Source: an uncultured Sphingomonadaceae bacterium
GTDB taxonomy: Bacteria; Pseudomonadota; Alphaproteobacteria; Sphingomonadales; Sphingomonadaceae
Length of the DNA stretch: 64,000 nt
NCBI GenBank assembly: GCA_937995515.1
Contig: CALKJZ010000014.1
Location: 1-64,000, forward strand
Direction: 5' to 3'
Below the pieces are notes generated by a model. It was not told the DNA's origin. It was given only the letters and a program-made list of their open reading frames with translations, and made no database searches. The position numbers and the translations under genes are program-made. This document shows positions 31,171 through 39,031 of this stretch, piece by piece; the stretch's first letter is position 1, and each line of letters begins with the position of its first letter.

Positions 31171-33060
31171 TCAGCCGAGCCTCCAGCGCAGGCCGCCGAA
31201 GGCGGCCCGCCCGGGTGTGCCATAGAGGCGCACCGTCTCGTAGCGCTCGTCGAACAGGTTCTCGATGCGCCCGAACAGCTCGAAGCCGCGGCCAATGGCA
31301 TAGGCCGCGCGCAGGTCGAGAAGCGTGTAGCCCGCAAGCCGGTTGCGGTTGGCGGCATCGTCGAAGCTGTCGCCCGTCACGCTCACAGTGGCGCCGAGCG
31401 ACAGGCCGGGGGGGGTCGCCCAGTCGATGGTGGCAAAGAGGCTCTCCTTCGGGCGGCGTGCGAGGCGCCGGCCGCTCGTGCGGTCCGCTGCATCGACATG
31501 GGCATAGCCGGCGCGCACCGCGAGGCCCTCCATCGGCGCGAGCCCGAGCGTCACCTCGAGGCCGTCGGCGCGTGTTCGGGCCACATTGTCGTAGGTGCCA
31601 AAGGGCCGGCCGGTGCAGATGGGCGAAGGGTTTCCAAAGCAGGAGACGAAGACGATCTGGTCGCGGACGTCGCGGCGGAACAGGGTGGCGGAGACCTCCG
31701 CCCTGCCATCCAGCAGGCGCTGTGCCAGGCCTGCGTCGATGCTCCGCGCGCGCTCGGGCTGCAGTCGGGTGTTGCCGAAATCGCTGAACAGCTGGAACAG
31801 CGAGGGCACCTTGAACCCCTCGCCATAGCTTGCGCGCACGATCGTGGCCCCTGCGTTGGGGGTGAAGCTGCCGCTTGCCGCAAGGACGGTCGTGCCGCCG
31901 AAACTGTCGCTGTCGTCGTGGCGCAGGCCAGCGGCCACGAACAGGCCCGCGACCGGCCGCAGCTCCAGCTGGCTGTAGATGCTGTCGAGCCGCGCGCGTG
32001 CGCGCGAGACGGGCCCGCCGAAGCTCTGCGCGCGGTAGCGGCTCGTTTCGCGCTCGAGCCCGAAGGTGGCGCTGAGCCACGGCGCGATCGCGGCGATCCC
32101 CTGATATTCCAGCCGCTCGTTGCGGCCGAGCGAGTCGAAGGTGATGCGAGGGGTTGCATCCGGGTTTTCATTCTCGCGCGCGATGCTCGTGAGGGCAAAG
32201 GCGAACCGGTTGCGCAGCCGGCCCCCGAACAGGCCGAGGTCGAGGCCGGAATAGCCCACGAACTGCCGCGTGCGGCTGACCTCCAGCGTGTCGGCAAAGC
32301 GGAAGGCGGGCGGCGGGAAGCCGTCGATGTCGGTCCTGCCATCGGACCAGAAGCCGCGCAGGTCGGCCGAAAGATTCTCGGCAATGTCCACCCGCAGCCG
32401 GCCGTTGACGGCGAGGTTCCGGAACCCGTCGCGCTCGATGCCGCCGCGGCGCTCGCTGAAGGCGGAGATGCCGTCGGTTGCATACCAGCCGGCCCCGAGG
32501 CTGGCCGCCACCGGCCCGACCCGCCCCGAGACATTGCCGACCACCTCGCCGGTGTTGCGGAAGCCCGCCTCGGCGCGCGCGCTGGCCGCGAGCGTATCTG
32601 TCGGCTCGGCGGTGATCATGTTCACAACGCCGCCAATCGCCTGGCTGCCCCACAAGACCGACTGCGCGCCGCGCACCACCTCGATCCGGCTGATGTTGCC
32701 CACCAGCAGCGGGCCGAAGTTGAACCCGCCGCCGGGCGCGGCCGGGTCGTTGACCTTCACGCCATCGATGAGCGCAACCGTCTGGTCGGAATCCGCGCCG
32801 CGGATGTTGACCGAGGTGACAGTGCCCGGGCCGCCGTTGCGCGCAACCGTGATGCCGGGCACCAGCCGCAGCGCATCGGCGATGCTGACCTGCTGCAGCC
32901 GCCGCAGGTCGGCCGTGTCGATGACGCTGACCGACTGGCCGACGGCTGCGAGCGGCGCCGGAGCCCGGGTGGCGGTCACCACCAGCTGCTCGCCTGCCTG
33001 CTCGGCGGCCGCAGCCGGTGCCGGCAGGAGGAGGGCGGAGAAGAGATACCAAGAGCGCAT
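31171..33060 (-). CDS. btuB: TonB-dependent cobalamin receptor BtuB-like
   Basis: Plug motifs ISRIEVVRGAQSVLWGSQAIGGVVNMIT; downstream of cobalamin riboswitch. Confidence 0.88.
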   Translation of the reverse strand: MRSWYLFSALLLPAPAAAAEQAGEQLVVTATRAPAPLAAVGQSVSVIDTADLRRLQQVSIADALRLVPGITVARNGGPGTVTSVNIRGADSDQTVALIDGVKVNDPAAPGGGFNFGPLLVGNISRIEVVRGAQSVLWGSQAIGGVVNMITAEPTDTLAASARAEAGFRNTGEVVGNVSGRVGPVAASLGAGWYATDGISAFSERRGGIERDGFRNLAVNGRLRVDIAENLSADLRGFWSDGRTDIDGFPPPAFRFADTLEVSRTRQFVGYSGLDLGLFGGRLRNRFAFALTSIARENENPDATPRITFDSLGRNERLEYQGIAAIAPWLSATFGLERETSRYRAQSFGGPVSRARARLDSIYSQLELRPVAGLFVAAGLRHDDSDSFGGTTVLAASGSFTPNAGATIVRASYGEGFKVPSLFQLFSDFGNTRLQPERARSIDAGLAQRLLDGRAEVSATLFRRDVRDQIVFVSCFGNPSPICTGRPFGTYDNVARTRADGLEVTLGLAPMEGLAVRAGYAHVDAADRTSGRRLARRPKESLFATIDWATPPGLSLGATVSVTGDSFDDAANRNRLAGYTLLDLRAAYAIGRGFELFGRIENLFDERYETVRLYGTPGRAAFGGLRWRLG

Positions 33061-33231
33061 GTTCAGTCCCCATCTGGCACATCACCAAAGGGGCCGGGCG
33101 GATGCGGTTCCCGCGCGCACATGTTCGCGTGCCGAGGGCAATCCCCCGCGCGCACGACCCCCAACTGTGTCGCCTCGCGAGGAAATCCCCGATCACGCGG
33201 CACACCCTGTCCGCGCGACTGAGCGACCGCA

Positions 33232-33420
33232 GCAGGCAGGTCTCCTGGCTCTCGGGTCAGTGCCGCCCGTCCCGCCTTCCCGGAGGAGCTCCAGTGGCAT
33301 GTGGGGCGGGGGCTCGCCGATCACAGTTGCAGGGGCAGCCCCGGCCTGCGGGCCGGCCGGGGTCCTCGCCGGCCGTTCCGCTCCCGGGTTCCCTTTTCAT
33401 CCCATCGCTGGGAACCTGCT
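33232..33420 (-). ncRNA. Cobalamin riboswitch
   Basis: Minus strand: GGTTCCC...AAAAGGGAACCCGGG...GGGGCTGCCCCTGCAACTGTGATCGGCGAG...ATGCCACTGGA...CGGGAAGGCGGG...CTGACCCGAGAGCCAGGAGACCTGCCTGC, the canonical B12-box elements. Confidence 0.95.
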
Positions 33421-33493
33421 GCACCCCGCCCCCTAGGCGGTCAGTCCGGCGCTGGCAAGGTGTTCTTCCGGTGCCAGGGCAGCCCGGGCCCGC

Positions 33494-36223
33494 TCAGTAG
33501 GTAAAGCGCAGGCCGCCGACATAACGGCGTCCGAAGGTTTCGAACTCGTAGGTGTAGATGGTCTTGCCCTGGAAGCGCCGGCCCGGGCTGTCGAGCAGGT
33601 TCGACGCATCGAAATAGGCCTCGAGCCTCGGTGTTACGGCGTAGCGGATGGAGAAGTCCAGCCGGTCCTGCGACGACCAGTAGAGATCGTAGGCGCCCTC
33701 GAGACCGGGGATGTCGGTGCCGGGCCCGCTGCCGATGAGATCGAGCCACTTGGTGCGGAACTGGTAGGAGAGCTTGGCCGAGATCCCATATTGCTCGAAA
33801 TAGGGCCCCACATTGAGCACCCAGCGCGACGTGCCCGGAAGCGGCACGCGCCGCCCGTCGGGCGTGGTCGCGCGGCTCAGGTTGTAGGTCGCGTTGGTCT
33901 GGATCCCGAAGCCGTCGATGAACCGCTCCTGCCCGGTGAGCCCGCCCAGCTGCACCTGCAGTGCAGCCTCGAAGCCCATGAGATAGCCGCTTCCGCCGTT
34001 GATGGTGGACAGCAGCTGGAAGTCGGCAAACTCGGGCCCGAGGAGATCCGGCCCGGCGCGCTGCGCGCCGTCGAAGAGCACGTCGGTTGCCTTCTTGTAG
34101 TAGGCCCCGAGCGAGACGAACCCGCGCGGGCGCAGATACCATTCGAAATAGGCATCCACGCCCCACACCTTTTCCGGCTCCAGCAGCGGGTTGCCGCCGG
34201 AGATGGTCTGCGCCGAGGTGTCGACGACAAAGTTCGGCCGGAACAGCGGGTAGTCGGCGCGCGCGGCGCCGGTCGAGAGTGTGAAGCGCAGCTTGGTGTC
34301 CGCGGTCGGCTCGAAGTTGAAGTGGACCGAGGGGAAGACGAGCGTCGAGTCGGACTGAACGGTCAGCGGTACGAAGCCGGAGCCAACGCTCCGGTTGCCG
34401 GTGGAGCGGTTCTTCACATGCTCGACCCGGGCGCCGTAGAGGATGCTGCCCCAGTCGAACTTCGACAGGCCCATGAGATAGGCTGCGAACACCTGCTCGC
34501 GCACCTCGTAGAAGTTCGTCTCGTTGAACACGAAGGTGCCGCCGGCAGCGGCAGCAGACTGGGTGATGCCGATCGTCTTGGCCGGGTCATAGTTGGTGAA
34601 GGTGAAGCCGGGCTTCAGCGTGCCGCGGAACGGATCGGTGCCGGCGATGAAGCCAAGGTCGCGCGGGATGCCGGCGGCGACGATGTTGGCGGCGCGGAAA
34701 TCGAGGAGCCGCTCGTCGCGGCTCTTGGTGCGCTGGTCGAAGCGGAGCCCGAACGACAGCCGCGTGTCGCCGCCGAGAAGCGCGTTGTTCCAGCCGAGGT
34801 CGATCTTGGCGGTGTAGGCGTCGGTCGGCTCGCTGAGCCGCCTGTCCCGCGCCCGGTTGAGGCTGAGCGGGAAATCCTCGATCCGGGTGACCGGCGCGCC
34901 GCGCGCGAAGAGGTTGCCCGGGTTGACGACGGTGCGGAACAGCGCAACCGGGAAGAAGTCCGGGTTCGCGGTGTCATAGTCCACCGTCGTCCGGTTGGCC
35001 GCACCGCTCGGCGCCGTATATTCCAGCGCCGAGGGCCGGTTGCCCTTGTCGAGCGAGCGGGTGTAGTTCAGCCGCCAGCTTACGTCCCAGTCGCCGAGAT
35101 CGTGGTCGCCGGAAAGCGTGTTGGTGAAGATCGACTGGCGCGGCCGGTCGTCGCGCGTGTCGTGCAGGATGGCGAGGCCGTAGACGGTGCCCGAAAACGG
35201 TGTGTTGCCGGTGCAGATGTCGGCGTAGCCGGTGGTTCCGGCCGGCGGCTGCGGGTTGACCGACGGGCAGGGCAGCGGGCTGTTCGGGATCTGGCTGCGG
35301 CCCGTGTCATAGTTGAACCGCCAGGCCGAGCGCGCCTCGTCGTCGGTGAAGATGGTGTAGATCGACGAGACGCCGAGCCGGTGCTCGGGGCTGGGGCGCC
35401 ATTCGAGGCGGCCCGAGAGCGACCAGTTGGTGCGGGTGAGGCGGTAGAACTTGTACTGCGTCCGCCGCGGCCACACCCGCTCGAGGCTGCCCGGCCGCCG
35501 GTCGCGCGGCTCGTAGATCCAGTCCGTCTCGAAATTGTCGGTGATCATGTCGCGCTCGAAGTAGGTGCCCGACAGCACCAGCCCCAGCTCGCCATCGCCC
35601 AGCGCAAAGCGGTTGGCATAGACCGCCGAGCCCTCATACTCCCAGCGGTTGCCCTTGTCGGAGATGCCGCCGCCTGCCTTCAAGGCGATCCGCATGTCCG
35701 GATAGTCGAACGCCGAGCGGGTAATGATGTCGACGTTGCCGGCAATCGTTTCGCCCGGCATGGCGGGGGTTACCGCCTTGTTGACGATGATCTGCGAGGC
35801 GATCGCGGCCGGAACCGAGTCGTAGCGTGTCACCCGGCCCTCGGGGCTCACCACATTGAGGCCGTCGAAGGCAAGGGTTGACCAGCGGTTGGGCGCGCCG
35901 CGGATGCTGATGTAGCGGCCCTGCCCCTGGTCGTTCTCGATCGCAATGCCCGGCAGGCGGGCGATCGCCTGGCCCACATTCTGGTCGGGAAGCCGGCCAA
36001 TCCCGTCGGCCGCCACAACCGAGACCAGCGACGGGGATTCGCGCTGCACGCGAAGCGCAGCTTCCTCGGATTCGCGGATCGGGCGGCTGCCCACCACCAC
36101 GATCTCCTCGGCCTCGACCGAGTCCACGGCCTGCGCGAGGGCCGGCCCGGCAGCAAGCGCCGCCCCGAGAGCGGGGAGGCAGGCGCCAAAGAGAAGCGGA
36201 TGGATGAGCAACCGGACTGGCAT
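33494..36223 (-). CDS. TonB-dependent receptor, likely phytate/organophosphate-associated by context
   Basis: Signal peptide; GRLPDQNVGQAIARLPGIAIENDQGQGRYISIRGAPNRWSTLAFDGLNV; C-terminal RRYVGGLRFTY beta-signal. Confidence 0.92.
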   Translation of the reverse strand: MPVRLLIHPLLFGACLPALGAALAAGPALAQAVDSVEAEEIVVVGSRPIRESEEAALRVQRESPSLVSVVAADGIGRLPDQNVGQAIARLPGIAIENDQGQGRYISIRGAPNRWSTLAFDGLNVVSPEGRVTRYDSVPAAIASQIIVNKAVTPAMPGETIAGNVDIITRSAFDYPDMRIALKAGGGISDKGNRWEYEGSAVYANRFALGDGELGLVLSGTYFERDMITDNFETDWIYEPRDRRPGSLERVWPRRTQYKFYRLTRTNWSLSGRLEWRPSPEHRLGVSSIYTIFTDDEARSAWRFNYDTGRSQIPNSPLPCPSVNPQPPAGTTGYADICTGNTPFSGTVYGLAILHDTRDDRPRQSIFTNTLSGDHDLGDWDVSWRLNYTRSLDKGNRPSALEYTAPSGAANRTTVDYDTANPDFFPVALFRTVVNPGNLFARGAPVTRIEDFPLSLNRARDRRLSEPTDAYTAKIDLGWNNALLGGDTRLSFGLRFDQRTKSRDERLLDFRAANIVAAGIPRDLGFIAGTDPFRGTLKPGFTFTNYDPAKTIGITQSAAAAGGTFVFNETNFYEVREQVFAAYLMGLSKFDWGSILYGARVEHVKNRSTGNRSVGSGFVPLTVQSDSTLVFPSVHFNFEPTADTKLRFTLSTGAARADYPLFRPNFVVDTSAQTISGGNPLLEPEKVWGVDAYFEWYLRPRGFVSLGAYYKKATDVLFDGAQRAGPDLLGPEFADFQLLSTINGGSGYLMGFEAALQVQLGGLTGQERFIDGFGIQTNATYNLSRATTPDGRRVPLPGTSRWVLNVGPYFEQYGISAKLSYQFRTKWLDLIGSGPGTDIPGLEGAYDLYWSSQDRLDFSIRYAVTPRLEAYFDASNLLDSPGRRFQGKTIYTYEFETFGRRYVGGLRFTY

Positions 36224-36281
36224 CGGTCCCCCTGACCTCTTGTCGTTTGTCCGGACCTAGATCCTGCTGCACTGCAGCGGC

Positions 36282-36310
36282 GTGACAGGGCGGTGAAGTT
36301 TCCGTGACAG
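36282..36310 (-). promoter_or_regulatory. Pho-box-like array (3 x 7-mer, 11-bp period)
   Basis: Minus strand: CTGTCAC-GGAA-ACTTCAC-CGCC-CTGTCAC; units at 36304-36310, 36293-36299 and 36282-36288. Confidence 0.75.
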
Positions 36311-36425
36311 GGCGCGGCACGGGTGCAAATGTGTCTTGCGCGCAACAGGCATAAGGCTATGGCCGGTGACGTGTGCAACGGGCGCGCCAATGGCCGCGCC
36401 GCGGGGAGGACGAACGGGGGCGCGC

Positions 36426-37940
36426 ATGCGGTTTTCCGGCTCCGGTCTTGCGTCCCATGCCCGGGGGCGTTCGCTGTGGAGGCTTGCAACATGGGGCCTT
36501 GCGGCCCTGGCGCTTGCGGCGGCACCACAGGCGGCGGCACCACAGGCGGCGGCAGCGCAGGCGGTGGTCGATGCGCGGGGGCCGCAGCCGGCGCCACATG
36601 CCCCCGGCCGGCCCTATGCCGCGCGGGGCCTGCCCGACCGGATCGTGCTGGTCGCCGGCGCGGACCCGGCGCGCGAGATGGCCGTTTCGTGGCGGACCGA
36701 CGTGAACCAGCCCAAGGCCGAGCTCGACCTTGTGGAAATGGCGAACGCGCCCAACTTCGGCCTGCGCGTCCGCCGGGTCGGGGGCACCTCCACGCGCGTC
36801 CTCAGCGAGAATGGCGAGGCGATCCATCACCGGGCGCGCCTTTCGGGGCTCAAGCCCGCCACCACCTATGGCTACCGGGTGAAGGGGGCCGACGGCTGGA
36901 GCGAGTGGCACCAGTTCCGCACCGCGGCCGCAAGCCGGGCCCCGTTCCGCTTCCTCTATTTCGGCGACACGCAGAACAGCATCCTCTCGATCGGCGCGCT
37001 TGCGTGGCGGCGGGCGCTGCTGCAGGCGGGCGACCCGGCATTCATCGTCCACGCCGGCGATCTGGTTGCCTCGCGGGAGGAACTGGTCCACGACGACGAG
37101 TGGGGCGAATGGGCGGCGGCCGGCGGCTGGGCGCTGGCGGCGCTGCCGCAGATCGCGGCTGCCGGGAACCACGAATATGTCGATGTCACCCTGCCCGACG
37201 GCCGGGAATCCCGCCGGCTCGGTGCGCACTGGGCGCTCACCCTGCCGTTTCCCGGCAATGGCGCACCGGGCGTGGAGACGACCACCGGCGTGATCGACTG
37301 GCAGGGCGTGCGCTTTATCATCCTCGATGGCACCTCGGCCATCGACCTCGGCACGCTCGAGGTGCAGACCCGCTGGCTGGAGGCCGAGCTCAGCCGGCCC
37401 GGAGCCGACTGGACGGTGGTCGTGATGCATCAGCCGGTCTTCACCTGCGCCCGGCCGGATGACACACCCCGAATCGGCGAGGCGTGGCGGCCGCTGTTCG
37501 AGCGCTACCGCGTCGATCTCGTGCTCCAGGGGCACGACCATTGCTACCACCGTCTCACCGACCCGCGCGGGCGTGCGGCCGGGTCCAAGGCGCGGGCGCA
37601 GGGCGGCGCGCAGGGCCCGGTCTACCTGATCTCGGTCACGGGATCGAAGATGTACGGACTGAGCCAGCGGGCGCTGGCCCAGGCAGACCGGGTGGCGGAG
37701 GATACACGGCTGTTCCAGATCGTCGATGTCTCGCCCGGACGGATGGCCGTGCGCGCGCACCTTGCGACAGGCGAGCTCTACGACGCCTTCGACCTCGTGC
37801 GCGGCCGCGACGGGCGCAACCGGCTCGTGGAGCCGGTGCGGGATCTTCCGGCCATGCGGCGCTGCACCGGCGCCACGCACGATCTCAATGCGGACTCGCT
37901 CAATGCGGACTCGCTGCCCTGCACCGTGAGGAGACGCTGA
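36426..37940 (+). CDS. Secreted purple acid phosphatase-like metallophosphoesterase
   Basis: Fn3-like N-term DRIVLVAGADPAREMAVSWRTD...; FLYFGDTQN, VHAGDLV, AAGNHEY, VMHQPVF, LQGHDHCYHR motifs. Confidence 0.9.
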   Translation: MRFSGSGLASHARGRSLWRLATWGLAALALAAAPQAAAPQAAAAQAVVDARGPQPAPHAPGRPYAARGLPDRIVLVAGADPAREMAVSWRTDVNQPKAELDLVEMANAPNFGLRVRRVGGTSTRVLSENGEAIHHRARLSGLKPATTYGYRVKGADGWSEWHQFRTAAASRAPFRFLYFGDTQNSILSIGALAWRRALLQAGDPAFIVHAGDLVASREELVHDDEWGEWAAAGGWALAALPQIAAAGNHEYVDVTLPDGRESRRLGAHWALTLPFPGNGAPGVETTTGVIDWQGVRFIILDGTSAIDLGTLEVQTRWLEAELSRPGADWTVVVMHQPVFTCARPDDTPRIGEAWRPLFERYRVDLVLQGHDHCYHRLTDPRGRAAGSKARAQGGAQGPVYLISVTGSKMYGLSQRALAQADRVAEDTRLFQIVDVSPGRMAVRAHLATGELYDAFDLVRGRDGRNRLVEPVRDLPAMRRCTGATHDLNADSLNADSLPCTVRRR

Positions 37941-39031
37941 TGCGACACGGCGGCCTCGGCCCGGCGCTGCTTCTGCTGGCAGCCTGCCAGCAGGCGGCCG
38001 CACCCGAGACCGGCGAGCGCGTGGTGTCCGCAGAGGCCGTGGCGGTGCCCGCTGCGCTGGAGACCGAGGTCCCGCGCGACCGTTTTCTCGATGCCGACGA
38101 TCCGGCGCTGTGGGCCGACCCGCGCGACCCCTCGCGCGCGCTCATCTTCGTCACCGACAAGAGCGAGGGCCTTTATGTGCACGGGATCGACGGCCGACGG
38201 CGGCAGTTCCTTGCCGACGGGCCGATCAACAATGTGGACGTCCGCGACGGCTTTGCCGTCGGCGGGCGCGGGATGGTGCTGGTGGTCGGTGGCGAGCGCC
38301 GGCGCTTCGGCCTCATGACCTGGCTCCTCGACCCGGACAGCCTCGAGGTCCGCCCCTATGGATTCATCCCCACGCCCGGGTCCTTCGGCGAGCCCTACGG
38401 CTCCTGCCTCGGACGGGTGGACGGGCGGATGCTTGCCGCGGTCAACAACAAGGATGGTGCAATCCAGGTCTGGGAGATTGCCGACCGCGGCGGGCAGCCG
38501 CAGGCGGCGCTGCTCCACGAGATGAAGCTGGGCTCGCAGACCGAGGGCTGCGTGATCGACGACGCGCGCGGGCTGCTCTATGTCGGCGAGGAGGATGTGG
38601 CCATCTGGCGCTTCGACCTCGCGCGCCCGACCGACCCGCCGGTGCGGGTGGCCCCGGTCGATGGCCGGATCCTCGTTGCCGATGTGGAGGGACTCACCAT
38701 CATGCGCGATGGCGACCGGCGCTTCCTCATCGCCTCGAGCCAGGGCGACAGCAGCTTTCCCGTGTGGCGGATCGATGGCGCCACCTATGTGTTCGAGGGC
38801 CGGTTCCGCGTGGCCGGCGGGGCTGTCGACCCGGTCTCGCAGACCGACGGGCTCGACGCCTGGTCGGGTCCGATTGGCCCCTTTTCCGAGGGTGCCATTG
38901 CCGTCCACGACCATTGCGACGGCGAGGGCGACACAAATCCAGTCCCGGAGGTGTGTGCCAGCGACGACCGGCAGCAGAACGTGAAGCTGGTGGACTGGCG
39001 CGCGGTCAAGCGGGCGCTCGGGATCGACTGA
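37940..39031 (+). CDS. Beta-propeller phytase (3-phytase), lipoprotein
   Basis: Lipobox LLLAACQQ; DADDPALWADPRDPSRALIFVTDKSEGLYVHGIDG...PINNVDVRDGF...; VYVGEEDV-like LLYVGEEDVAIWRF; SSQGDSSFPVW. Confidence 0.92.
   Translation: MRHGGLGPALLLLAACQQAAAPETGERVVSAEAVAVPAALETEVPRDRFLDADDPALWADPRDPSRALIFVTDKSEGLYVHGIDGRRRQFLADGPINNVDVRDGFAVGGRGMVLVVGGERRRFGLMTWLLDPDSLEVRPYGFIPTPGSFGEPYGSCLGRVDGRMLAAVNNKDGAIQVWEIADRGGQPQAALLHEMKLGSQTEGCVIDDARGLLYVGEEDVAIWRFDLARPTDPPVRVAPVDGRILVADVEGLTIMRDGDRRFLIASSQGDSSFPVWRIDGATYVFEGRFRVAGGAVDPVSQTDGLDAWSGPIGPFSEGAIAVHDHCDGEGDTNPVPEVCASDDRQQNVKLVDWRAVKRALGID

Follow-up and report, generated by a model that had tools for sequence, protein, structure and literature searches.

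The locus studied here raises the question of how a TonB-dependent receptor and the enzymes encoded next to it are controlled, and whether a single repeat array lying between them serves one side or both. In the window, i.e., the whole stretch of 64,000 nucleotides that was analysed, a beta-propeller phytase gene is found beside a TonB-dependent receptor gene (PF02333 and TIGR01782, above cut-off). The receptor gene, which is the predicted target, occupies positions 33494-36223 of the minus strand. On the plus strand, the divergent operon begins with a gene encoding a secreted purple-acid-phosphatase-like metallophosphoesterase (36426-37940; Pfam PF16656 and PF00149), whose start codon at 36426 is a choice among starts, and continues with the phytase gene (37940-39031), recognised by its profile match and displaying the lipoprotein-type signal LLLLAAC. 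Since the phytase frame overlaps the phosphatase stop codon (37940), both genes probably form one operon. Judging from these neighbour genes only, the ligand of the receptor is likely to be phytate or inositol phosphates. The closest named relative sharing this arrangement is Thermaurantiacus tibetensis, and the window comes from its genus or from very close to it within Sphingomonadales.

The window also carries a BtuB-like TonB receptor gene (31171-33060), preceded by a cobalamin riboswitch (94 bits; 33218-33434, minus strand). The riboswitch also lies upstream of a cluster of B12-type ABC-transporter genes that reaches down to about 28541. Because of the riboswitch upstream, this other receptor is probably controlled by B12 and not by phosphate.

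The array lies at 36282-36310 within the 202-bp region that separates the receptor and phosphatase genes, and reads CTGTCACGGAAACTTCACCGCCCTGTCAC on the minus strand. It comprises the units CTGTCAC (36304-36310), ACTTCAC (36293-36299) and CTGTCAC (36282-36288), separated by ggaa and cgcc, with a period of exactly 11 bp, and the receptor ATG (36223) is found 59 bp downstream. The earlier note on this DNA had given this sequence, strand, position, period and distance, all of which proved exact on re-reading. Both outer units are perfect CTGTCAC while the middle one is weak, differing from it at 3 of 7 positions. A candidate degenerate fourth unit, CTGCAGT, lies in register at 36271-36277 (minus strand); it matches at 4 of 7 positions and is suggested by direct reading and by the spacing to the -10-like element described below.

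With a simple three-unit CTGTCAY score, whose maximum is 21, the array reaches 18.5 and is the sole site scoring at least 16 within the 64 kb. None of 60 second-order Markov surrogates contains a site scoring 18 or more, and their maximum is 17.0. The other periods tried (8-10 and 12-15) give best scores of 15.0-17.0. The exact array sequence has one match in the whole genome. Genome-wide, patterns were counted with the reversed pattern as control: five three-unit arrays with at most three mismatches occur in the whole genome, against none for the control. The same search in five genomes of the genus gives 20 against 1, and two-unit boxes with at most two mismatches number 44 genome-wide against 10.

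Conservation of this array was surveyed in Sphingomonadales and Caulobacterales, where 80 named loci encode orthologues of the receptor, 78 of them with sufficient upstream sequence. A beta-propeller phytase is encoded within 5 kb in 62 of these 78 loci. It had been stated beforehand that absence of the motif upstream of orthologous receptors would speak against the prediction; the motif is present there, as 52 of the 78 loci have their top array, among about 25,000 positions per locus, on the receptor strand of the 350-bp promoter region (about 1 expected). Mean scores of the orthologues are 15.5 on the receptor strand, compared with 13.3 on the other strand and 13.9 with the control. For about one third of the orthologues, the best array lies outside the promoter region, and several are clearly devoid of an array. 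In a comparison of 56 phytase neighbourhoods of the family and the window, promoter regions outscore the reversed control (Wilcoxon P = 1.4e-8), related loci being treated here and below as independent, so that P values are indicative only. Furthermore, among 28 held-out phytase loci with non-orthologous receptors, the array ranks first in 21 and the receptor strand is favoured in 24. In T. tibetensis, an array is kept at the same place. As the phosphatase gene is found in only one other genome of the genus, footprinting within the genus amounts to two sequences only.

The relatives also suggest where transcription could begin. Within 45 bp past the array, 23 of 51 relatives have a CTAG or CTAA core, compared with 3 of 51 in an upstream stretch of that length, and 22 of the 23 cores start 9, 20, 31 or 42 nt past the array, i.e., 9 mod 11. 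This core had been picked after viewing 30 loci. Because it was first seen in these data, it was tested again on held-out loci with unrelated receptors, where 11 of 13 cores follow the same phase. It agrees with GCTANAWC, the -10 consensus of Caulobacter RpoD (PMC8144410). In the window, the -10-like element CTAGGTC (36254-36260, minus strand) contains the only CTAG between 35900 and 36600 and departs from CTANAWC at one position. Its CTAG (36257-36260) starts 21 nt past the array instead of 20, which departs by one base from the phase seen in relatives, and CTAGGTC is thus likely but not certain to be the exact -10 here. E. coli PhoB promoters have the same spacing between array and -10 as the relatives. 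On the receptor side of T. tibetensis, no CTAG or CTAA core was found at the expected phase, and a scan for E. coli-type sigma-70 promoters found none on either strand, the E. coli consensus being a poor guide in this group. CTAG is strongly avoided in the window (20 occurrences in 64 kb where about 170 are expected), so that its recurrence as a -10 core stands out readily. Altogether, we consider it very probable, from the sequence and its comparison with relatives, that PhoB acts through the array to activate the receptor promoter.

Does the same array also serve the phosphatase and phytase genes? The earlier note had predicted induction by phosphate starvation for the receptor and, possibly, for the divergent operon. 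The first part holds as a prediction, the conserved array, the phased -10 of the relatives and the presence of PhoRB-Pst in the genome all pointing to it, whereas the second is not supported. PhoB boxes have a direction, and that of the array is towards the receptor; a second array, sought on the plus strand of the window, reaches at best 13.5, a background score. In the 13 divergent relatives, the phytase-facing strand has a mean score of 14.9, against 13.0 in 49 codirectional loci (P = 7e-5), and in T. tibetensis this strand bears the pair CTGCCAC-aagt-CTGACAT, then CTAG 9 nt further on. Divergent relatives, as a group, thus seem to have a box of their own for the phytase side. It is therefore unlikely that PhoB bound at 36282-36310 would also activate the phosphatase-phytase operon, even though the array is located within the 202 bp that separate both genes and the products of both sides act on organic phosphate.

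A weak candidate for a housekeeping-type promoter of the operon can be read directly at 36337-36365 on the plus strand (TTGCGC ... GCTATGGC), and no phased Pho box accompanies it. We tentatively propose, as a possible reading that is somewhat less likely than not, that receptor and enzymes are regulated separately, each divergent direction normally having its own phased Pho promoter and the phosphatase-phytase box having been lost here. If this is true, the receptor would be induced by starvation and the periplasmic enzymes would run from a housekeeping promoter.

Concerning the regulator, one cluster of the genome, intact as phoR-pstSCAB-phoU-phoB, encodes a PhoR-like kinase, a PstS-family protein, PstC, PstA, PstB, PhoU and PhoB. 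PhoB scores above the curated cut-off, and the best match of the kinase, TIGR02966, is below its own (296.8 vs 334.2). Pho-box pairs or arrays are also found upstream of the genes of PhoD, a CHAD/CYTH protein and a second TonB receptor in the same genome, and upstream of those of PhoX and a phytase-like protein in T. tibetensis. The pstS gene of this genome has a weak box upstream (15.0), which does not establish the local PhoB consensus independently. Besides PhoB, the genome encodes several regulators of the OmpR family, which recognise direct repeats with a comparable period. Another member of this family, for example of the ChvI type, could thus bind the repeats instead. We regard this as very improbable, as the units fit the PhoB consensus, the same motif lies upstream of PhoD and PhoX genes in the genus, and a phytase is the conserved neighbour. 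That the array is a mere chance repeat of a GC-rich intergenic region, as its weak middle unit might suggest, is hardly credible and is rejected as far as sequence statistics allow, since surrogates never reach its score (17.0 at most vs 18.5) and its position and strand are conserved in relatives.

Some other arrays of the genome can be mentioned here. The three-unit array of the CHAD/CYTH gene (polyphosphate-binding type; L002:1490-1518, genome C18:39292-39320) abuts the called start, and the true start probably lies downstream of it. A strong three-unit array (score 19) is located between mutM and dnaA (L098:3805-3833, minus strand; genome C21:104804-104832), with no called gene immediately downstream. 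Another strong array, TTGTCAT-TTGTCAA-CTGTCAT (L012:1501-1529, minus strand; genome C2:7659-7687), has no called gene near downstream on its strand.

If the array is the PhoB-activated promoter of the receptor gene, low phosphate would lead PhoR to phosphorylate PhoB. Dimers of PhoB~P would then occupy the 11-bp repeats at 36282-36310 in head-to-tail order, and perhaps also the weak fourth unit at 36271-36277. The bound repeats would substitute for a -35 element and bring the housekeeping RNA polymerase to the -10 CTAGGTC at 36254-36260, so that transcription would start near 36247 and the leader would measure about 25 nt. Phytate-like esters could enter the periplasm through the receptor, and the phosphatase and phytase lipoprotein of the divergent operon would free phosphate from them there. 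What the analysis shows is the sequence, the rarity and conservation of the array, the phased -10 of the relatives and the presence of PhoRB-Pst; that PhoB binds, that the receptor is induced, where transcription starts and what the ligand is are predictions.

As in E. coli PhoB box promoters, 7-bp CTGTCAY units with an 11-bp period would here replace the -35 element; in E. coli, the -10 lies about 10 nt past a unit. Unlike in E. coli, the -10 of the relatives, and the likely one of the window, has the CTAG/CTAA core of alphaproteobacteria, arrays differ in their number of units, the array may stop at least one unit short of the -10, and one unit of the window array is weak. The occurrence of a phytase gene beside a TonB receptor gene in Proteobacteria was reportedly described earlier by Lim et al. 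2007. Compared with such beta-propeller phytase/TonB-receptor loci, the window has, in addition, a purple-acid-phosphatase-like gene and a predicted Pho-box promoter that is mapped and conserved. In Caulobacter crescentus, the PhoB regulon under phosphate starvation includes TonB-dependent receptors and a phytase, as shown by transcriptomes and ChIP (PMC11208175). In the window, which comes from another order, this control is predicted from sequence and the receptor is divergent from a phosphatase-phytase operon. Thus, it was already known that PhoB controls TonB receptors and a phytase in Caulobacter, and that phytase and TonB-receptor genes can be adjacent. What seems new is the conserved, apparently phase-locked promoter architecture across Sphingomonadales and, in the window, the apparently separate control of receptor and enzymes; a search of a limited literature collection found no paper on sphingomonad Pho boxes at phytase loci.

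These results would tie a widespread sphingomonad phytase/TonB-receptor locus to phosphate starvation through a recognisable predicted promoter. They also offer a rule for finding PhoB targets (CTGTCAY units followed by a CTAG/CTAA core that starts 9 mod 11 nt away), which may be useful in an order with few mapped PhoB targets, and the receptor becomes a candidate phytate importer.
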